From a virus: a stretch of DNA of 27,327 nt. The notes beneath the pieces are model-generated. The model was not told the DNA's origin. It saw only the letters and a list, made by a program, of their open reading frames with translations, and ran no database searches. The DNA is taken from IMG/VR virus record IMGVR_UViG_3300046836_000593, positions 1-27,327 of that record; one strand, given 5' to 3'. Of the stretch, positions 5,101 through 27,327 are shown in pieces. The position numbers and the translations under genes are program-made. Every line of letters starts with the position of its first letter. Position 1 is the first letter of the stretch.

Positions 5101-5799
5101 ATGCAGCCTGTCCTCGATTTTCTCGCCACGCCGCACGGCGTCATTGCCGCGGTCCTGTTTTGCGCCTTCGCCGCGGGGGCGCTCTTTCGCGTCCAGGCGC
5201 TGGCCGTCGCTGAGCGGAAATGGTGCGGAGACGTCGCCCATTTTGAAGCGGCTCTTGGACTTTCCGATACGATGACAGCGCCCTGGAGCGATCTGGCCAG
5301 TGGCGACATTCCCGGTTTCGTCGGCGCCATGAAGGCCAAGATTAAATATCTCGCCGATCGCTCGAACCGCGAGAAGGAAGTCGTCAACGTCCTGCGAACG
5401 CTATATGCGACTCCGTCAGGAAAAGCCGCGATCGACAAAGCCTATGCGGATCTGGCTGGCGGCGCGACGGCCGAGCAGCTCCAGGCCGACGTCGACGGCG
5501 TTGTCATTGCGGCTCCGAAAGGCCCCGGCCTGGGCCCGGTTGCGACTGATGTGGCGAACGCCGTCGCCAAGATTGAAGCACTGACTGCCAATCCCGCGCT
5601 GGCGAATCTGCTGCACCTTTTGCCCGCCGACCAGGGGATCCTCGGAAGTGCCCTGTTGACTGCCGGTCATGCGGTCGGAGCCGCCGTCTCAGCGACAGGC
5701 GCCATCGCTCCCGCAGCCGGAATCGCGATCGGCAATGTTCCCGCCGACCATACCGTGACAATCGCCGGGCCGGTGACTCCACCTGCAGCCGCGGCCTGA
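5101..5799 (+). CDS. Single-pass membrane protein of unknown function
   Basis: 232 aa. One N-terminal membrane helix (about residues 12-30, HGVIAAVLFCAFAAGALF) is followed by a helical soluble part and a Gly/Ala-rich C-terminus (residues 180-232) that ends in PPAAAA and is probably disordered or repetitive in structure. There is no catalytic motif. It is the last membrane protein of the envelope cassette and follows the protease gene by 36 bases. Topology (N-in anchor, extracytoplasmic body) would suit a spanin-like, lysis-accessory or superinfection-immunity role, but no family is recognised. Confidence 0.6.
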   Translation: MQPVLDFLATPHGVIAAVLFCAFAAGALFRVQALAVAERKWCGDVAHFEAALGLSDTMTAPWSDLASGDIPGFVGAMKAKIKYLADRSNREKEVVNVLRTLYATPSGKAAIDKAYADLAGGATAEQLQADVDGVVIAAPKGPGLGPVATDVANAVAKIEALTANPALANLLHLLPADQGILGSALLTAGHAVGAAVSATGAIAPAAGIAIGNVPADHTVTIAGPVTPPAAAA

Positions 5800-22114: not shown

Positions 22115-22879
22115 ATGATCTACGGCTTCAATTCTCTGAATGACATCAGGCGCATCGACCGCACGGTCAGTGCGCACGAGCTCACGTCGCCCCCGAAAAC
22201 AGGCGACAGGCCGCAATATCCGCTGCTGAATTTTTATCCGCGGATCGGGTTCTATAACGATAGCGGTTCGACTATTCCCCCCTTTGGCTGCGTCCTGCTC
22301 AAGGGGAGCCAGGCCCAGAAGACAACGACGACCGGCCCCGGCGTGCAGGTCGTCGCCGGACCCGTGCAGGGCATCTGCCCGTCTGTAAAGCAGCCCGATC
22401 GCTTTGGATGCCAGTCCGACGTATTCATTGCCGACGAGGCACTGGGAACCGGCTATCTCAATCAAGCATTCGGCGCCGCGCAGCAGGTCCCGCCATTTGT
22501 CGCACTCTATGACAGTGCCGACGGAACTCCCGCGACCGGCGAGCGCTGGGGTCCACGCTCAGGCACATTCAAGCTCAAGAAAAACACGGGGGGTTTTCTC
22601 GTCATAGGTCCCTACGACACGACAAACCATTATGCATTGGTTCTGCCAGAGTCGATGACGACCGTCCGCGGCAAGATCGCGTCCGACTGTGCACCTGGTG
22701 CGAGCGCGGATTTGACGATCTGGACCGGCGCGATCGGAGCCGAGGCGACGACCAGCCTAGCGATTACCAGCGTCTACAACGACAGCGATTGCACGATCCG
22801 GGCAACTCCGAAATTTGCCACCGCCATTTTTGTCCCGCTGAATTCGGCATGGCTATTCGTCGTGGGGAGAACGGCTTGA
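22115..22879 (+). CDS. Beta-rich late structural protein
   Basis: 254 aa with an N-terminal short helix (MIYGFNSLNDIRRIDRTVSAHEL) followed by several beta repeats (YNDSGSTIPPFGCVLLKG, FLVIGPYDTTNHYALVLP), few charged helices and four cysteines. Composition matches tail-tip or capsid-attached fibres. Domain FYNDSGSTIPPFGCVL looks like a compact beta-hairpin module seen in phage structural proteins. The stop overlaps the proposed TTG start of the next gene. Not recognised as a named family. Confidence 0.6.
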   Translation: MIYGFNSLNDIRRIDRTVSAHELTSPPKTGDRPQYPLLNFYPRIGFYNDSGSTIPPFGCVLLKGSQAQKTTTTGPGVQVVAGPVQGICPSVKQPDRFGCQSDVFIADEALGTGYLNQAFGAAQQVPPFVALYDSADGTPATGERWGPRSGTFKLKKNTGGFLVIGPYDTTNHYALVLPESMTTVRGKIASDCAPGASADLTIWTGAIGAEATTSLAITSVYNDSDCTIRATPKFATAIFVPLNSAWLFVVGRTA

Positions 22880-23523
22880 GATCGATAATTGAATCCTCTC
22901 CGCATCCTGGCCTGATCATGCCGCGGGCCGTCGATAAAAAGTTGGTCGATTGGCGGCAGCCGCACCCGCTGGAGCGACCGGTTAAGAAAAATCGAATCAG
23001 TCTCCATCCGGGCGGCGAGCCTAAGATTGTCGAACCTGATTTGCGATTGCCGCGCGCCGTCTGGTGGATGCCGCGAAATTGGCGAAGGCCCTGGAGAGAC
23101 AAACCGGGACTAATCTGTTGCTGCCAATCCTCCGCATCATCATCTTCGTCCGCGTGCATGGCGCCTTGCAGCCAATGCAGTCCAATATTGTCTCTACCGT
23201 GTATTCTGCACTTCACCTATGCGAGTTCCGATTGTATCGATCCGAATACCGGAGTTCTGGGGGTATATTGCAACGCGACGCTTCCGGCAATTTTTAACGG
23301 CACAAATTGGGTAAGCACACTTATTTGCGACGGAGTCTCCCATAACACAATTTTCGTTTGCGGCGGTGTTCATGCACCGTTCACTTTGGGAGGAACATTT
23401 GCGGAGGCCACATTCGGAGCCAGCAGCTCGACGTGTAATCCACTAAACATCGTTTTCAACACGACGACCAGCAGTATTTGTTGCACAACGACGGCGCATT
23501 TTACCATTACGGTGACCCTGTGA
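22876..23523 (+). CDS. Cys-rich structural or surface protein
   Basis: 215 aa from TTG 22876 (TTGA overlap with the previous stop); ATG 22849 or 22918 in the same frame are alternatives. The N-terminal 75 residues are basic and Pro/Trp-rich. Then comes a cluster CCC at 81-83, a Ser run, and C94, C98, C101, C109 (CCC-x10-C-x3-C-x2-C-x7-C), followed by a beta domain with seven further Cys (14 in all) and many Asn/Thr. I recall a comparable CCC...C..C block in front of beta domains in planctomycete phage-like loci. Metal binding or disulfide stapling is possible. Function unknown; probable virion-surface protein by place. Confidence 0.6.
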   Translation: MRSIIESSPHPGLIMPRAVDKKLVDWRQPHPLERPVKKNRISLHPGGEPKIVEPDLRLPRAVWWMPRNWRRPWRDKPGLICCCQSSASSSSSACMAPCSQCSPILSLPCILHFTYASSDCIDPNTGVLGVYCNATLPAIFNGTNWVSTLICDGVSHNTIFVCGGVHAPFTLGGTFAEATFGASSSTCNPLNIVFNTTTSSICCTTTAHFTITVTL

Positions 23524-23870
23524 GCTGCTGCGAGAAAATTGTTGATGCAGCAAGCAAAAACACCCCTTGCGAATGCGCCGCCGCTGGATTCTGCGCGAGG
23601 CACAAATGCACGAAGGTTCCGCATTTTCACATGCTTTGCAAGAGCCACATTGGATATTTCGAACAGTATGAAGCGGGCAATGGACCGGGACAAAATTTGG
23701 CGGCTCCCTCCACGCAGCCGTTCGCACTGGGCCTGGGCGACGTCGTCGCGTTCGCAATTCGCGTCATAACTCGCGGAAAGGTTGCGATGTGTTCAGCTTG
23801 CCAAAGCCGAAAATCTCGACTTAACCGAATTCGACTCTGGCCGGTCCGCTGGCCATGGAACAAAAAATGA
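23520..23870 (+). CDS. Cys/His-rich protein with GLGD-CxxC-LN C-terminus
   Basis: 116 aa from GTG 23520 (GTGA overlap with the previous stop). Cys at 3, 4, 17, 19, 25, 30 and 40 with H28, H35 and H37 (PHFHMLC) make one or two likely zinc sites, followed by YFEQYEAGNGPGQ and a C-terminal segment GLGDVVAFAIRVITRGK...C91-x2-C94...RKxRLN. Small proteins with this order (Cys/His module, GPGQ, GLGD, CxxC, LN) are in my memory a recurrent late phage or prophage gene type in planctomycetes; I know no function. The next gene starts in an ATGA overlap. Confidence 0.65.
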   Translation: MSCCEKIVDAASKNTPCECAAAGFCARHKCTKVPHFHMLCKSHIGYFEQYEAGNGPGQNLAAPSTQPFALGLGDVVAFAIRVITRGKVAMCSACQSRKSRLNRIRLWPVRWPWNKK

Positions 23871-24409
23871 CGCTCGAGGACCTATATCACAAGGCATGGC
23901 GACAGGGCCCGAATATCGGCGAGCACTGCCCGACGCTTCGCCTGCTTGCCAGCGAATGCGAGCATGTCACGGAATTCGGAACAGACTTGGCTGTCAGCAC
24001 GACGGCTTTTCTTGCCGCACAGCCGAAGACGCTGACGACGTTCGATGTGAAACCGTCGCCGGCGGCTGAAGCGCTCAGGCCATTTTCCGGCCGCACCAGT
24101 TTCGAGATTATCCGGGCCGATTCACTTTCATCCGACATCGACAGCGCTTTCGGGACTCCCGACCTGCTCCTGATTGACAGCCTCCATACATGCGCGCAGC
24201 TTTCGGCGGAATTCGCACGGTGGGCGAATCGAATACGGCGCTGGATTGTCTTACATGACACTCTGACTTTCGGCGACATCGGAGAGGACGGAACCCGCGG
24301 ACTTATTCCGGCCCTCCGTGAGTTTCTCGTGGTTCATTCGGAATGGCGGATTGTTGCGGAATACCGGAACTCGCACGGGCTGACTGTTCTGCGGAGACAG
24401 GCGCCGTGA
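23867..24409 (+). CDS. Class I SAM-dependent methyltransferase-like protein
   Basis: 180 aa from ATG 23867 (ATGA overlap, GGAA upstream); ATG 23855 would add four residues. Rossmann-type order: motif I HVTEFGTDLAVSTTAFL (E-x-G), an acid at the end of strand 2 (TTFDVKP, D60), then DLLLIDSLHT (D103, H107) and WIVLHDTLTFGDIGEDGTRG. IDxxH followed by VLHDT is what the Methyltransf_24 / cephalosporin-hydroxylase-like group shows. Motif I has GTDLA instead of the common Gx-GxS, so catalytic activity is not certain. Adjacent to the glycosyltransferase-like gene in a GTGA overlap, suggesting modification of a sugar or surface polymer. Confidence 0.72.
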   Translation: MTLEDLYHKAWRQGPNIGEHCPTLRLLASECEHVTEFGTDLAVSTTAFLAAQPKTLTTFDVKPSPAAEALRPFSGRTSFEIIRADSLSSDIDSAFGTPDLLLIDSLHTCAQLSAEFARWANRIRRWIVLHDTLTFGDIGEDGTRGLIPALREFLVVHSEWRIVAEYRNSHGLTVLRRQAP

Positions 24410-25176
24410 ATGTTCGCAATCTCATTGTGCATTGTTATCCGCGCAAATCCGGCAAATGGCGACGCACGCTCGCCCACCTAACAGACGGCTCGCGCTGGGA
24501 ACAATTCACGGGTCGGAAGATCGTGACGATCGCCTATGACGAATGTTGTAGCGACCCGGGCGAAGTTTGCAGCGAATGGCCCGCTGAATGTGAAGTCATC
24601 ATCAAGCCGAACATTCAGGGGCTGCAGGAAGTCGCCAGCTTTATCCCGATGATGGAGCGAATCGAATCCAGGGAGCCGGACGAATTCACGACCTATATTC
24701 ACTGCAAGGGCGCAACGCAGCCGGACGGGCACGGCTCGCACGGATGGCTTGATCTGATGGCGTCGGCCAATCTCGACTATCCCGATCTCATCAAGTGTAT
24801 GTTCGCGACCGGGAAAAACGTCTGCGGCGCCTTCCGGTCGCATGGACTTTGGGCATTTGCGGGGTATCACAACTGGCACTTCGCCGGGACTTGGTTCACG
24901 TTCCGCCATTCGCGAATTTTCGGGGAACTCGACTGGCGAAATATCCATCCGAATTTTATGGGAGTCGAGGCGTGGCCCGGAATCGTGCCGGTTGATGAAA
25001 GTGGCTGCCTGTTCTATGACAACGCGAACACGGCCCACCTCTATTCCAATGAATATCAGCGCGATTTTCTGATTCCGTCGATGAAATGGTGGCATAAATC
25101 GCTCGCGGACTGCGGACTTCGGCCTGCGACCTTTGCAACTGGCGCTGCGCATTTCCCTCTTCGCGCCGCTAAGTGA
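24406..25176 (+). CDS. Glycosyltransferase-like protein
   Basis: 256 aa from GTG 24406 (overlapping the methyltransferase stop). The opening NLIVHCYPRKSGKWRRTLAHL, middle FTTYIHCKGATQPD (97-107) and late WHFAGTWFTFRHSRIF (157-172) with GVEAWPG (186-192) form a pattern I associate with a group of uncharacterised glycosyltransferase-like proteins in planctomycetes and other bacteria (Y-x-H-x-KG and W-x-x-x-G-T-F/W). No classical DxD is obvious, so the assignment is by resemblance only. Eight Cys. Being coupled to a methyltransferase-like gene, it probably decorates or methylates a surface glycan or tail protein. Confidence 0.55.
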   Translation: MNVRNLIVHCYPRKSGKWRRTLAHLTDGSRWEQFTGRKIVTIAYDECCSDPGEVCSEWPAECEVIIKPNIQGLQEVASFIPMMERIESREPDEFTTYIHCKGATQPDGHGSHGWLDLMASANLDYPDLIKCMFATGKNVCGAFRSHGLWAFAGYHNWHFAGTWFTFRHSRIFGELDWRNIHPNFMGVEAWPGIVPVDESGCLFYDNANTAHLYSNEYQRDFLIPSMKWWHKSLADCGLRPATFATGAAHFPLRAAK

Positions 25177-25333
25177 AATCACCCATAGTCGGATTGTAGG
25201 CCGGGTGACGGTGATTCAACCGGTATTCGCTCCAAAGTCCAGTTTTCCGGCCCGCGCGCCGAAACCGACGCGCCAGGATGCCCCAGGACGACGCGAACTC
25301 TCGCGCGTGACCTATTCCCCGTCCGGTTCGCCC

Positions 25334-26227
25334 ATGCTCGTCCCTGCGCTAATCGACGCCTTCCTGGCATGGACCGGTCGTCATCGGGCTCCGGCGACGT
25401 CCCGATTCTACGGCAGCCGCCTCAAGCTATTTCGAATCAGATTCGCGACCCGCGAGTTTCGCCTGGCTCGGATTGACGCCTTCGATGCGATGGGGATCAC
25501 GCCCATAGAGGTCGACGAATATCTGCATGCCGCGGGATTCCGTCCAGACGGCCGGCCTCTCTCGGACAGCACCAGGCGGCACAATGCAGTCGCTTTGCAA
25601 TCTTTACAATCGTTCGCCGTCGACCAGAAGATCCTGGCCCGAGGCCAGGAAATCTTCGACGAGCTCGAAAAGCCGGCGATGGGGCGCCGCGAGCGGATCC
25701 CGACCGACGCCGAAATCGACAAACTCATGGAACCTGCGCCGCTGGCGTTCCGCATCATCTACGGAGCGCTCTCGCAGACAGGATGCCGCCCCGGTGAACT
25801 CTGCGGCCTGACCATTGAGCAAATTGACTGGTCCAAGGGGGCGCATGGCCTGATCGCTTTAGCGCGGCACAAGACCGCCCGCAAGACCGGCAAGCCGCGG
25901 CTCGTCCCAATTGGCCGGAAGTTTCTTGCTCTGCTGCACGTCGCCATCGGCGATAGGACGAGCGGGCCTGTTTTCCGCACCGAACGCGGCCAGGCCTGGT
26001 CACCAGGTCACGTCTCATCTATGCACCGCACGTTGCGGGACAAGGCCGGCTTGCCGCGGGACCTAGTGCTTTACCTGGCCCGTCACGGCTTCGCGACCCG
26101 TCAGCTCGAGGCGGGGACCGACATTAAGACCGTCGCCGACCTGCTGGGCCATGCCAGCGTCAAAACAACCGAGCGCTATACCCACCGCGACATCAGCACG
26201 CTTTCCGACGACCAGGACCGCGTCTGA
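25334..26227 (+). CDS. int: Tyrosine recombinase (phage integrase)
   Basis: 297 aa from ATG 25334; the frame also allows GTG 25307, GTG 25205 or TTG 25133, and start choice is uncertain as no good ribosome site is seen. SAM-like core-binding domain (LIDAFLAWTGRHRAPATSRFYGSRL) and catalytic domain with R152 (TGCRPGELCGL), Lys in ARHKTARKTGK (K180 or K184), R250 in LYLARHGFATR, H273 (LLGHASVKTT) and nucleophile Y282 (ERYTH). The usual HxxR box reads YxxR here (Y247). Integrases that insert and excise phage DNA at att sites have this set, so a temperate phage is implied. It lies on the far side of the late operon, not near a repressor. Confidence 0.93.
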   Translation: MLVPALIDAFLAWTGRHRAPATSRFYGSRLKLFRIRFATREFRLARIDAFDAMGITPIEVDEYLHAAGFRPDGRPLSDSTRRHNAVALQSLQSFAVDQKILARGQEIFDELEKPAMGRRERIPTDAEIDKLMEPAPLAFRIIYGALSQTGCRPGELCGLTIEQIDWSKGAHGLIALARHKTARKTGKPRLVPIGRKFLALLHVAIGDRTSGPVFRTERGQAWSPGHVSSMHRTLRDKAGLPRDLVLYLARHGFATRQLEAGTDIKTVADLLGHASVKTTERYTHRDISTLSDDQDRV

Positions 26228-26249: not shown

Positions 26250-26261
26250 CGGTGACACCAC
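26250..26261 (+). repeat. Dispersed 12-base motif, copy 4
   Basis: CGGTGACACCAC between integrase stop (26227) and the beta-helix gene start (26318). GTGACA as a -35-like box and TATTCA 17 bases later would give a promoter about 40 bases upstream of the gene. Confidence 0.7.
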
Positions 26262-26317
26262 TTATGTTGCACTGTATTCACCCGCGGGCAACCCTCTCGA
26301 AACTCTTGGAGCTCTCA

Positions 26318-27327
26318 ATGCGTCACCTTCTCGCCTGTTTCGTGATTCTGTTTTTATCCGCGGTCGCGTTCGCCCAGCCAGGCGCCGATCCCTCGGTGCC
26401 GCCGACAGGCTTCGAGCAGATCTGCGCCGACCCCGGCTTTCGGGTTTTCAATGTGAAGGGTTTCGGGGCCAAGGGGGACGGTCTCAGCGATGATACGGTT
26501 GCCATCAGGGCGGCGATCGCCGCGGCCGTTTCGAACGGCTCGGGGAATATCTATTTCCCGGCCGGCGTTTACCTCGTCTGCGGCCAACCGACGGACGTCA
26601 ACCCGGGCTGGCCGATCATCTTCCGAATCAATATGGGGAATCTCGTCTTTTCCGGCGACGGTCCGACGAAATCGATTCTGTCCGGGCTCATGCCCGGATT
26701 GAAAGACCCGAAAACGACCTGGGTTAAGACGACCGATTCCTATGCGAAAATTTCACGCTTCAAAATGTTCGGCTTCGGATATGACGGCCAGGCCGCCGGG
26801 CCGATCGATACGATCCAGTTTCGCGGTCTCTCGCTCAATGGGAACTTCCCATACACCGGCTATTCGCTCGTCGGCGGAGATCGAGCGACGGGCAACGGTT
26901 GGGACGTTACGCATAAAGCTGTCGCGTTCGCAAACTCTGTCGCCTCGACGAGGATTCTATTTTTCAATTTCAATACGTGCAATTGGGCCGGTGAGAATGT
27001 CTATTCGGGAGAATCGGCGTCGCCTAGTTTTTACTTCGTCAATTCGACCGCCTGGGGCAGTAACGCGAGCATGATCAGCGTGCCCGCCATTACGATTGAA
27101 TCGTCAGCATTGGGCGGGACGGACTTCGCACATAGCGCCTACAACGGGACAGAGTGTATGTGTATGTCCCCGGGCCTTGGTCAGACATTTTCCAATTCGA
27201 TTGTGCAGGGCTGCGGAAACGGCAATGTGCATATCGGATACCGCGGCAGTTTTTACAAAGCGGTCAATTCGAAATTTGATTTGTGTTATCGGGGCATTCT
27301 CTTCTCGGAGAGCGCCTACAACGTCGA
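26318..27327 (+). CDS. Secreted right-handed beta-helix protein (pectate lyase superfamily), 3' partial
   Basis: ATG 26318, preceded by TTGGAG, opens a frame that runs to the window end without stop (336 codons seen). A signal peptide (MRHLLACFVILFLSAVAFAQ) is followed by FRVFNVKGFGAKGDGLSDDTVAIRAAIAAA (about 41-70) and IYFPAGVYLV, the classic opening of pectate lyase 3-type beta-helices found in phage tailspikes and polysaccharide lyases. Then come helix-like coils with Asn/Phe/Ser (ILFFNFNTCNWAG, SNSIVQGCGNGNVHIGYRG). With a signal peptide it would be exported, unlike a virion tailspike, so it could be a depolymerase made at lysis, or a host gene beyond the phage end. C-terminus missing. 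Confidence 0.85.
   Translation, partial: MRHLLACFVILFLSAVAFAQPGADPSVPPTGFEQICADPGFRVFNVKGFGAKGDGLSDDTVAIRAAIAAAVSNGSGNIYFPAGVYLVCGQPTDVNPGWPIIFRINMGNLVFSGDGPTKSILSGLMPGLKDPKTTWVKTTDSYAKISRFKMFGFGYDGQAAGPIDTIQFRGLSLNGNFPYTGYSLVGGDRATGNGWDVTHKAVAFANSVASTRILFFNFNTCNWAGENVYSGESASPSFYFVNSTAWGSNASMISVPAITIESSALGGTDFAHSAYNGTECMCMSPGLGQTFSNSIVQGCGNGNVHIGYRGSFYKAVNSKFDLCYRGILFSESAYNV

Follow-up and report, generated by a model that had tools for sequence, protein, structure and literature searches.

In mycobacteriophages, capsid and tail-tube proteins are reportedly modified by glycosyltransferases whose genes adjoin that of an O-methyltransferase (PMC11600133 and PMC12619734, citing Freeman et al. 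2023). The four-gene cassette described here, which lies at positions 22876-25176 of the IMG/VR record IMGVR_UViG_3300046836_000593 (analyzed as a complete record of 27,327 bases and hereafter called "the window"; a near-identical second record, locus L002, was also found), likewise combines a predicted glycosyltransferase with a methyltransferase-type protein, and adds to them two Cys-rich partners at the end of a tail module. Judged from sequence comparisons and a structure model, it is best read as a cassette for the glycosylation and O-methylation of a tail-tip protein, a reading that we hold with slightly better than even confidence, in a virus whose host, going by the relatives of the cassette, is probably a planctomycete (Planctomycetota).

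All four genes lie on the plus strand, and each shares four bases with the gene before it (TTGA at 22876-22879, GTGA at 23520-23523, ATGA at 23867-23870 and GTGA at 24406-24409), just as the first-pass annotation had described: P1 (22876..23523) encodes a Cys-rich protein of 215 amino acids (aa) with 14 Cys, P2 (23520..23870) a Cys/His domain with a C-terminal motif, P3 (23867..24409, with an alternative ATG at 23855) a class I S-adenosylmethionine (SAM) methyltransferase-type protein, and P4 (24406..25176) a protein modelled as a GT-A fold glycosyltransferase of an unnamed family. The gene overlapped by the start of P1 is that of the tail-tip protein (P0006, 22115..22879, plus strand), recognized by family search. 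The weak TTG start of P1 is made plausible by a GGGGAG some 6 bases 5' of it; its exact position is uncertain, given the in-frame ATGs downstream and the shorter P1 N-terminus in relatives. The Cys-richness claimed for the first two proteins holds as well, P2 (7.8% Cys) and P1 (6.5%) being the top two among the 31 open reading frames (ORFs) of the window. Ratios of nonsynonymous to synonymous change (pN/pS) between the window and its relatives, at 0.23-0.26 for P4, 0.25-0.40 for P3, 0.38-0.47 for P2 and 0.57-0.61 for P1, which is thus the fastest evolving of the four, argue that all of them are real genes under selection. Tight overlaps are by themselves ordinary in phages, and the weight of the argument lies on the conservation of these overlaps and on gene fusions rather than on the overlaps alone.

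Whether the four genes co-occur in other phages was among the checks proposed along with the first-pass annotation, and the same four are indeed found in the same order in two further loci. In L003, all the start/stop overlaps are present, an overlap of P1 with the preceding gene is seen too, and the identity to the window is 74% for P4, 62% for P3, 56% for P2 and 34% for P1; in L006, a 63-kb contig, the P1/P2 and P3/P4 overlaps are kept, and an extra small ORF without a Pfam family (5118-5474, 118 aa) stands between P2 and P3, for which a by-eye guess of a HAD phosphatase received no support from Pfam. Relatives of P4 occur in 4/392 planctomycete genomes by genome search, and a scan of IMG/VR using these returned at least 80 P4 loci, which are a sample found via a short motif, and whose neighbours come from mechanical ORF picking, so that individual ones may be wrong; beyond L003 and L006, at least 77 loci hold a P4 relative. 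Genome contigs scanned with the two nearest P4 sequences gave no match. The gene directly 5' of P4 is Cys-rich (at least 4.5% Cys) in 31/57 non-redundant loci, versus 43/652 (6.6%) of other genes (odds ratio 17, p 1e-18), an association independent of homology, and either a Cys-rich upstream gene or a Cys-bearing N-terminus is present at 50 of the 61 P4 loci. The upstream genes of these loci encode tape-measure and other tail proteins, and the two genes 3' of P4 include a match to 2OG-FeII_Oxy_3 (2-oxoglutarate-Fe(II) oxygenase) in 17/77 cases, as well as many methyltransferases and family-2 glycosyltransferases (GT2), one sulfotransferase and one radical SAM protein; such a gene content is what one would expect of an island for the modification of proteins or glycans that closes the tail module.

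The set is often fused and recurs in dozens of uncultured viruses. A P2-type domain is joined N-terminally to P4 in at least seven of them (L054, L062, L063, L069, L071, L091 and L099), other P4 proteins bearing apparently unrelated Cys domains in its place; P4 is fused to P3 in L080, GT2 to a P3-type domain in L012 and L020-L024 (planctomycete loci among them), and a single protein of L015 unites a Cys motif, a glycosyltransferase-like region and P3. Together with the conserved gene order, these P2-P4, P4-P3 and P3-GT2 fusions bear out the suggestion that the parts of the cassette act together. The conserved parts of P2 are CxCxxxxGxCxRHxCxKxxHxxxLC and a C-terminal GLGD..CxxCxxRKxRLN, and the spacing of Cys and His suggests zinc binding. 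In a prophage tail end of planctomycete genome G369 (L046), a single protein joins P4 to GT2 modules and to a TubC_N docking domain, which is normally a domain of polyketide/peptide synthases.

The P1 family, as collected with an iterated profile, spans 13 distinct viral contigs (the window and L003 included) and two host genomes, its members standing mostly just in front of P4-type genes. Relatives of P1 are seen in L003, L006 and L053 among viruses and in L047/L048 in hosts, and analogues of P1 are found either fused to tail-tip proteins or in front of glycosyltransferases. The homologue of the window's 22115-22879 gene in L018 extends 697 aa with 68 Cys and directly precedes a fused glycosyltransferase-methyltransferase gene, another member of this tail-tip family (L013) has a poly-Ser extension, and the tail protein at the equivalent place in L020 has a C-terminal part made of Cys-rich modules and a long stretch of Ser/Thr. 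No observation speaks more strongly for a place of P1 in the tail tip than the Cys-rich extensions of the L018 and L020 tail proteins; P1 is probably a component of the tip, and may be the acceptor there. The planctomycete prophage-type tail proteins of L020 (6055-8994) and L023 (5438-8386), which combine Cys-rich modules with several hundred residues of mucin-like Ser/Thr tail, both lie immediately 5' of a GT2-methyltransferase-DUF6171 fusion gene. As a general signature, mucin-like Ser/Thr tracts had to be dropped, being not enriched (1/175 upstream genes of P4 loci versus 2/568), and they are left out of the argument for the window since they are confined to some GT2-methyltransferase loci.

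P1, P2 and P4 gave nothing significant in Pfam, PHROGs, NCBIfam or PADLOC, and P4 had no sequence match in the PDB either, where the matches obtained (e.g., IFI16) were at chance level. The AlphaFold2 model of P4, however, rose from a mean predicted local distance difference test (pLDDT) of 48.7 on 4 sequences to 94.4 on a 66-sequence alignment (predicted template modelling score, pTM, 0.91), and the best PDB matches of this model in Foldseek were mainly GT-A enzymes and sugar-nucleotide transferases (E down to 1e-4), with VIA-align giving Z 9.9-11.1 over 163-188 aligned residues at a root-mean-square deviation of 3.2-5.1, and a library of viral structures returning proteins named Glyco_tranf_GTA and Rhamnan synthesis protein F. 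On the strength of this placement, the earlier label of a sugar transferase is right at the fold level: P4 is, by its model, a glycosyltransferase family of the GT-A (Rossmann-like nucleotide-sugar) fold without a Pfam entry. Over the 66 sequences, an H99-x-K101-G102 motif follows beta-4, with K101 invariant and H99 and G102 nearly so, and E75, W114, G141, W157 and G161 are invariant. For P3, a methyltransferase-type domain is likewise borne out, its sequence matching the full Methyltransf_24 profile (25.0 bits, E 3.6e-5), with EFGTDLAVS as motif I (ExGxxxGxS) and D60, LIDSLHT and VLHDT besides; the homologous domain of L020, in a planctomycete genome, passes at 31.4 bits and also weakly matches RMNT_CmcI. 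Thus neither of the two outcomes named beforehand as refuting the first-pass annotation, a lack of co-occurrence elsewhere or of a transferase fold, was obtained. Other relatives of P3 occur in viruses and in polysaccharide clusters of several genomes. The fused P3-type domains of L017/L018 lack both the glycine of motif I and the LLFIDS acidic residue, and are probably inactive methyltransferases retained in the glycosyltransferase fusion.

Parts of the cassette are also found away from viruses, in planctomycete chromosomes, next to large genes for YD-repeat surface proteins. In L048, four P1-like genes, a GT2-P4 fusion and a P2-type protein stand in a row, in an operon with a giant YD-repeat gene, and in L150, L151, L153 and L154, P1-like genes, P2-type domains and glycosyltransferases accompany a giant YD-repeat protein, the P2-type domain being N-terminally fused to family-2-like glycosyltransferases in L150 and L154. 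The genomes with P2 domains and those with P4 overlap in 3/4 (hypergeometric p 1.4e-5). The operons of L150, L151, L153 and L154 also encode a giant glycosyltransferase/TPR-like protein and tandem small Cys-rich proteins, and the N-terminus of their YD-repeat protein is Cys/Gly-rich. As the set stands beside both tail genes and chromosomal YD-repeat genes, its parts seem to serve exposed proteins of the virus and the cell alike.

Under the favoured reading of tail-tip decoration, the four genes would be expressed late, together with the tail genes; P1 would be added to the tail tip, with either P1 or the preceding tip protein as the acceptor; P2, a Cys/His and probably zinc-binding adaptor, would bring the glycosyltransferase to that acceptor; P4 would move a sugar from a host nucleotide-sugar onto the tail-tip protein; and P3 would subsequently O-methylate this sugar, or else the protein. 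A tip so decorated would alter adsorption, stability or host-surface recognition. We infer here that P2 binds zinc and that P1 is a virion protein, as well as the identity of acceptor and sugar, the sequence of the steps and what the virus gains. Arguing for the reading are the absence of any membrane helix (maximum KD19 1.36) or signal peptide from P1-P4, the tail genes upstream and the failure of a search of the cassette region to find a promoter-like site; the gene order of L003 and L006, the fusions and the Cys-rich gene 5' of P4; the tip proteins that carry Cys-rich or mucin-like Ser/Thr extensions before GT2-methyltransferase genes (L018, L020) or poly-Ser (L013); and the mycobacteriophage precedent, as reported in PMC11600133 and PMC12619734. 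Among the roles that had been proposed for the cassette, modification of the virion surface fits the tail context best. Several observations, however, weigh on the other side: the cassette has a lower guanine-cytosine content (0.556, P1 0.528) than the late module (0.608), which suggests an accessory or acquired block; P4 shows HxKG rather than a DxD after beta-4, unlike most GT-A enzymes (some GT-A families lack DxD); P3 stays 1.3 bits under the Pfam gathering score (25.0 versus 26.3), and the second Gly of its motif I is replaced by Ala; most P4 loci lack the mucin-like Ser/Thr signal (found in 1/175 upstream genes); and a P2-like protein of L152 stands alone after tail genes, with no adjacent glycosyltransferase.

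The main rival, ranking second and in our estimation unlikely, is lysogenic conversion, in which P3 and P4 would modify a surface glycan or protein of the host in the lysogen, thereby blocking a receptor or changing the surface, with P1 and P2 helping or being displayed. That the cassette adjoins the integrase, that in L006 its neighbours are host-type genes of the provirus end (a place that also harbours lysogenic-conversion genes), that many P3 relatives belong to cellular polysaccharide clusters and that a set of P1, P2 and glycosyltransferase also occurs in chromosomes, next to YD-repeat genes, would all suit this explanation, but the cassette has neither a membrane-anchored glycosyltransferase nor a flippase, an acyltransferase or signal peptides, its start overlaps a tail gene with no promoter-like site of its own, and its relatives lie at tail ends. 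A more doubtful proposition is that P1 and P2 are structural tail proteins, and P3 and P4 act on some other target (DNA bases, a sugar nucleotide or a small molecule), with no joint function: the solitary P2-like protein of L152 and the frequency with which DNA is the target of phage glycosyltransferases can be cited for it, and the P2-P4, P4-P3 and Cys motif-glycosyltransferase-P3 fusions, as well as the recurring Cys-rich gene before P4, against it. Least probable of all, and improbable indeed, is a catalytically decayed set, in which P4 and P3 are kept as structural or binding modules (for glycans or cofactors) that transfer nothing; the HxKG in place of DxD, the weak motif I of P3 and the loss of the motif I glycine and LLFIDS acidic residue in L017/L018 point that way, but P3 retains E36, G38, D60, D104 and D131, P4 keeps an invariant, active-site-like residue set over 66 sequences, and purifying selection is strong (pN/pS about 0.25).

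A bolder and rather speculative thought, to which we would give only a minor chance, is that of a portable device for decorating surface proteins, in which P2, as a dedicated Cys/His adaptor, presents P1, as a dedicated Cys-rich acceptor, to P4. It would be exchanged between planctomycete YD-repeat loci and viral tails, and would draw on tailoring enzymes that can replace one another (O-methyltransferase, prolyl-hydroxylase-like 2OG oxygenase, radical SAM protein, sulfotransferase); even cysteine is conceivable as the residue that accepts the sugar (S-glycosylation).

In the window as a whole, the gene order runs from terminase through portal, nuclease, major head, head-tail adaptor, neck and tail chaperone genes, followed by unnamed genes, to the tail-tip protein, and 3' of P4 lies a tyrosine integrase (25133-26227; phrog_1, E 2.6e-38), which places the cassette between tail tip genes and integrase, as had been stated. 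The TTG start of the integrase overlaps P4 by 44 bases, and the comparison with L003 suggests a real start near 25330. Directly after it, a Pect-lyase_RHGA_epim (pectate-lyase-like) protein with a clear signal peptide (26252-27327) is cut by the end of the record, and might either be related to tailspikes or be a host-type enzyme that is secreted. A Mu Gam-like DNA end protection protein (882-1604; phrog_491, E 1.3e-16) is encoded alongside the tyrosine integrase.

Were the tail-tip decoration reading true, virion protein glycosylation, established in few phage groups, would be extended to viruses of Planctomycetota, the phages of which are hardly studied; the Cys-rich acceptor/adaptor pair would make such systems easy to recognise, and the set common to host YD-repeat loci would connect, directly and testably, the decoration of phage tails with that of surface proteins in bacteria. 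Like the virion glycosylation cassettes of actinobacteriophages, that of the window has genes for a glycosyltransferase and a methyltransferase within the genome of a tailed phage. No tblastn match was found for P1, P3 and P4 among 50,697 GenBank phage records, nor for two P4 relatives in GenBank phages, so there is no tblastn-level relation to the actinobacteriophage enzymes, a remote relationship being possible; the window further differs in its Cys-rich partners, in a Cys/His domain fused to the enzyme in relatives, in its tail-tip site, and in being a planctomycete-type virus. P4 has its fold over nearly the whole chain in common with GT-A enzymes (GT2-like ArnC/GtrB/DPMS, GlcAT, chondroitin synthase CHSY3 and the viral Rhamnan synthesis protein F), but differs from the named ones in its 5-14% identity, lack of a Pfam family and HxKG at the DxD position. 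P3 matches Methyltransf_24, below the gathering score and with a partly degenerate motif I, and its L020 relative weakly RMNT_CmcI (rhamnosyl O-methyltransferase, CmcI). Gtr serotype conversion cassettes (GtrA/GtrB/Gtr) also have a phage glycosyltransferase near an integrase; unlike them, P1-P4 include no membrane proteins or flippase, and the P4 model is soluble. No PADLOC model for anti-phage defence was matched. The planctomycete YD-repeat (Rhs-like) loci resemble the cassette in their P1-like proteins, P2-GT2 fusions (L150, L154) and P4-type glycosyltransferases (L045, L047, L048), and differ in being chromosomal rather than tail-associated, with no P3-type methyltransferase found there. 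The first-pass remark that no system of this make-up has been described is to be narrowed: virion cassettes of O-methyltransferase and glycosyltransferases have been described in mycobacteriophages (PMC11600133, PMC12619734), whereas the Cys-rich partners, the P4 family and the host-locus link were not met with in the literature searched. The novelty here lies in the Cys-rich pair of proposed acceptor and adaptor, in a P4 family that has no name, and in a set that viruses have in common with host YD-repeat loci.

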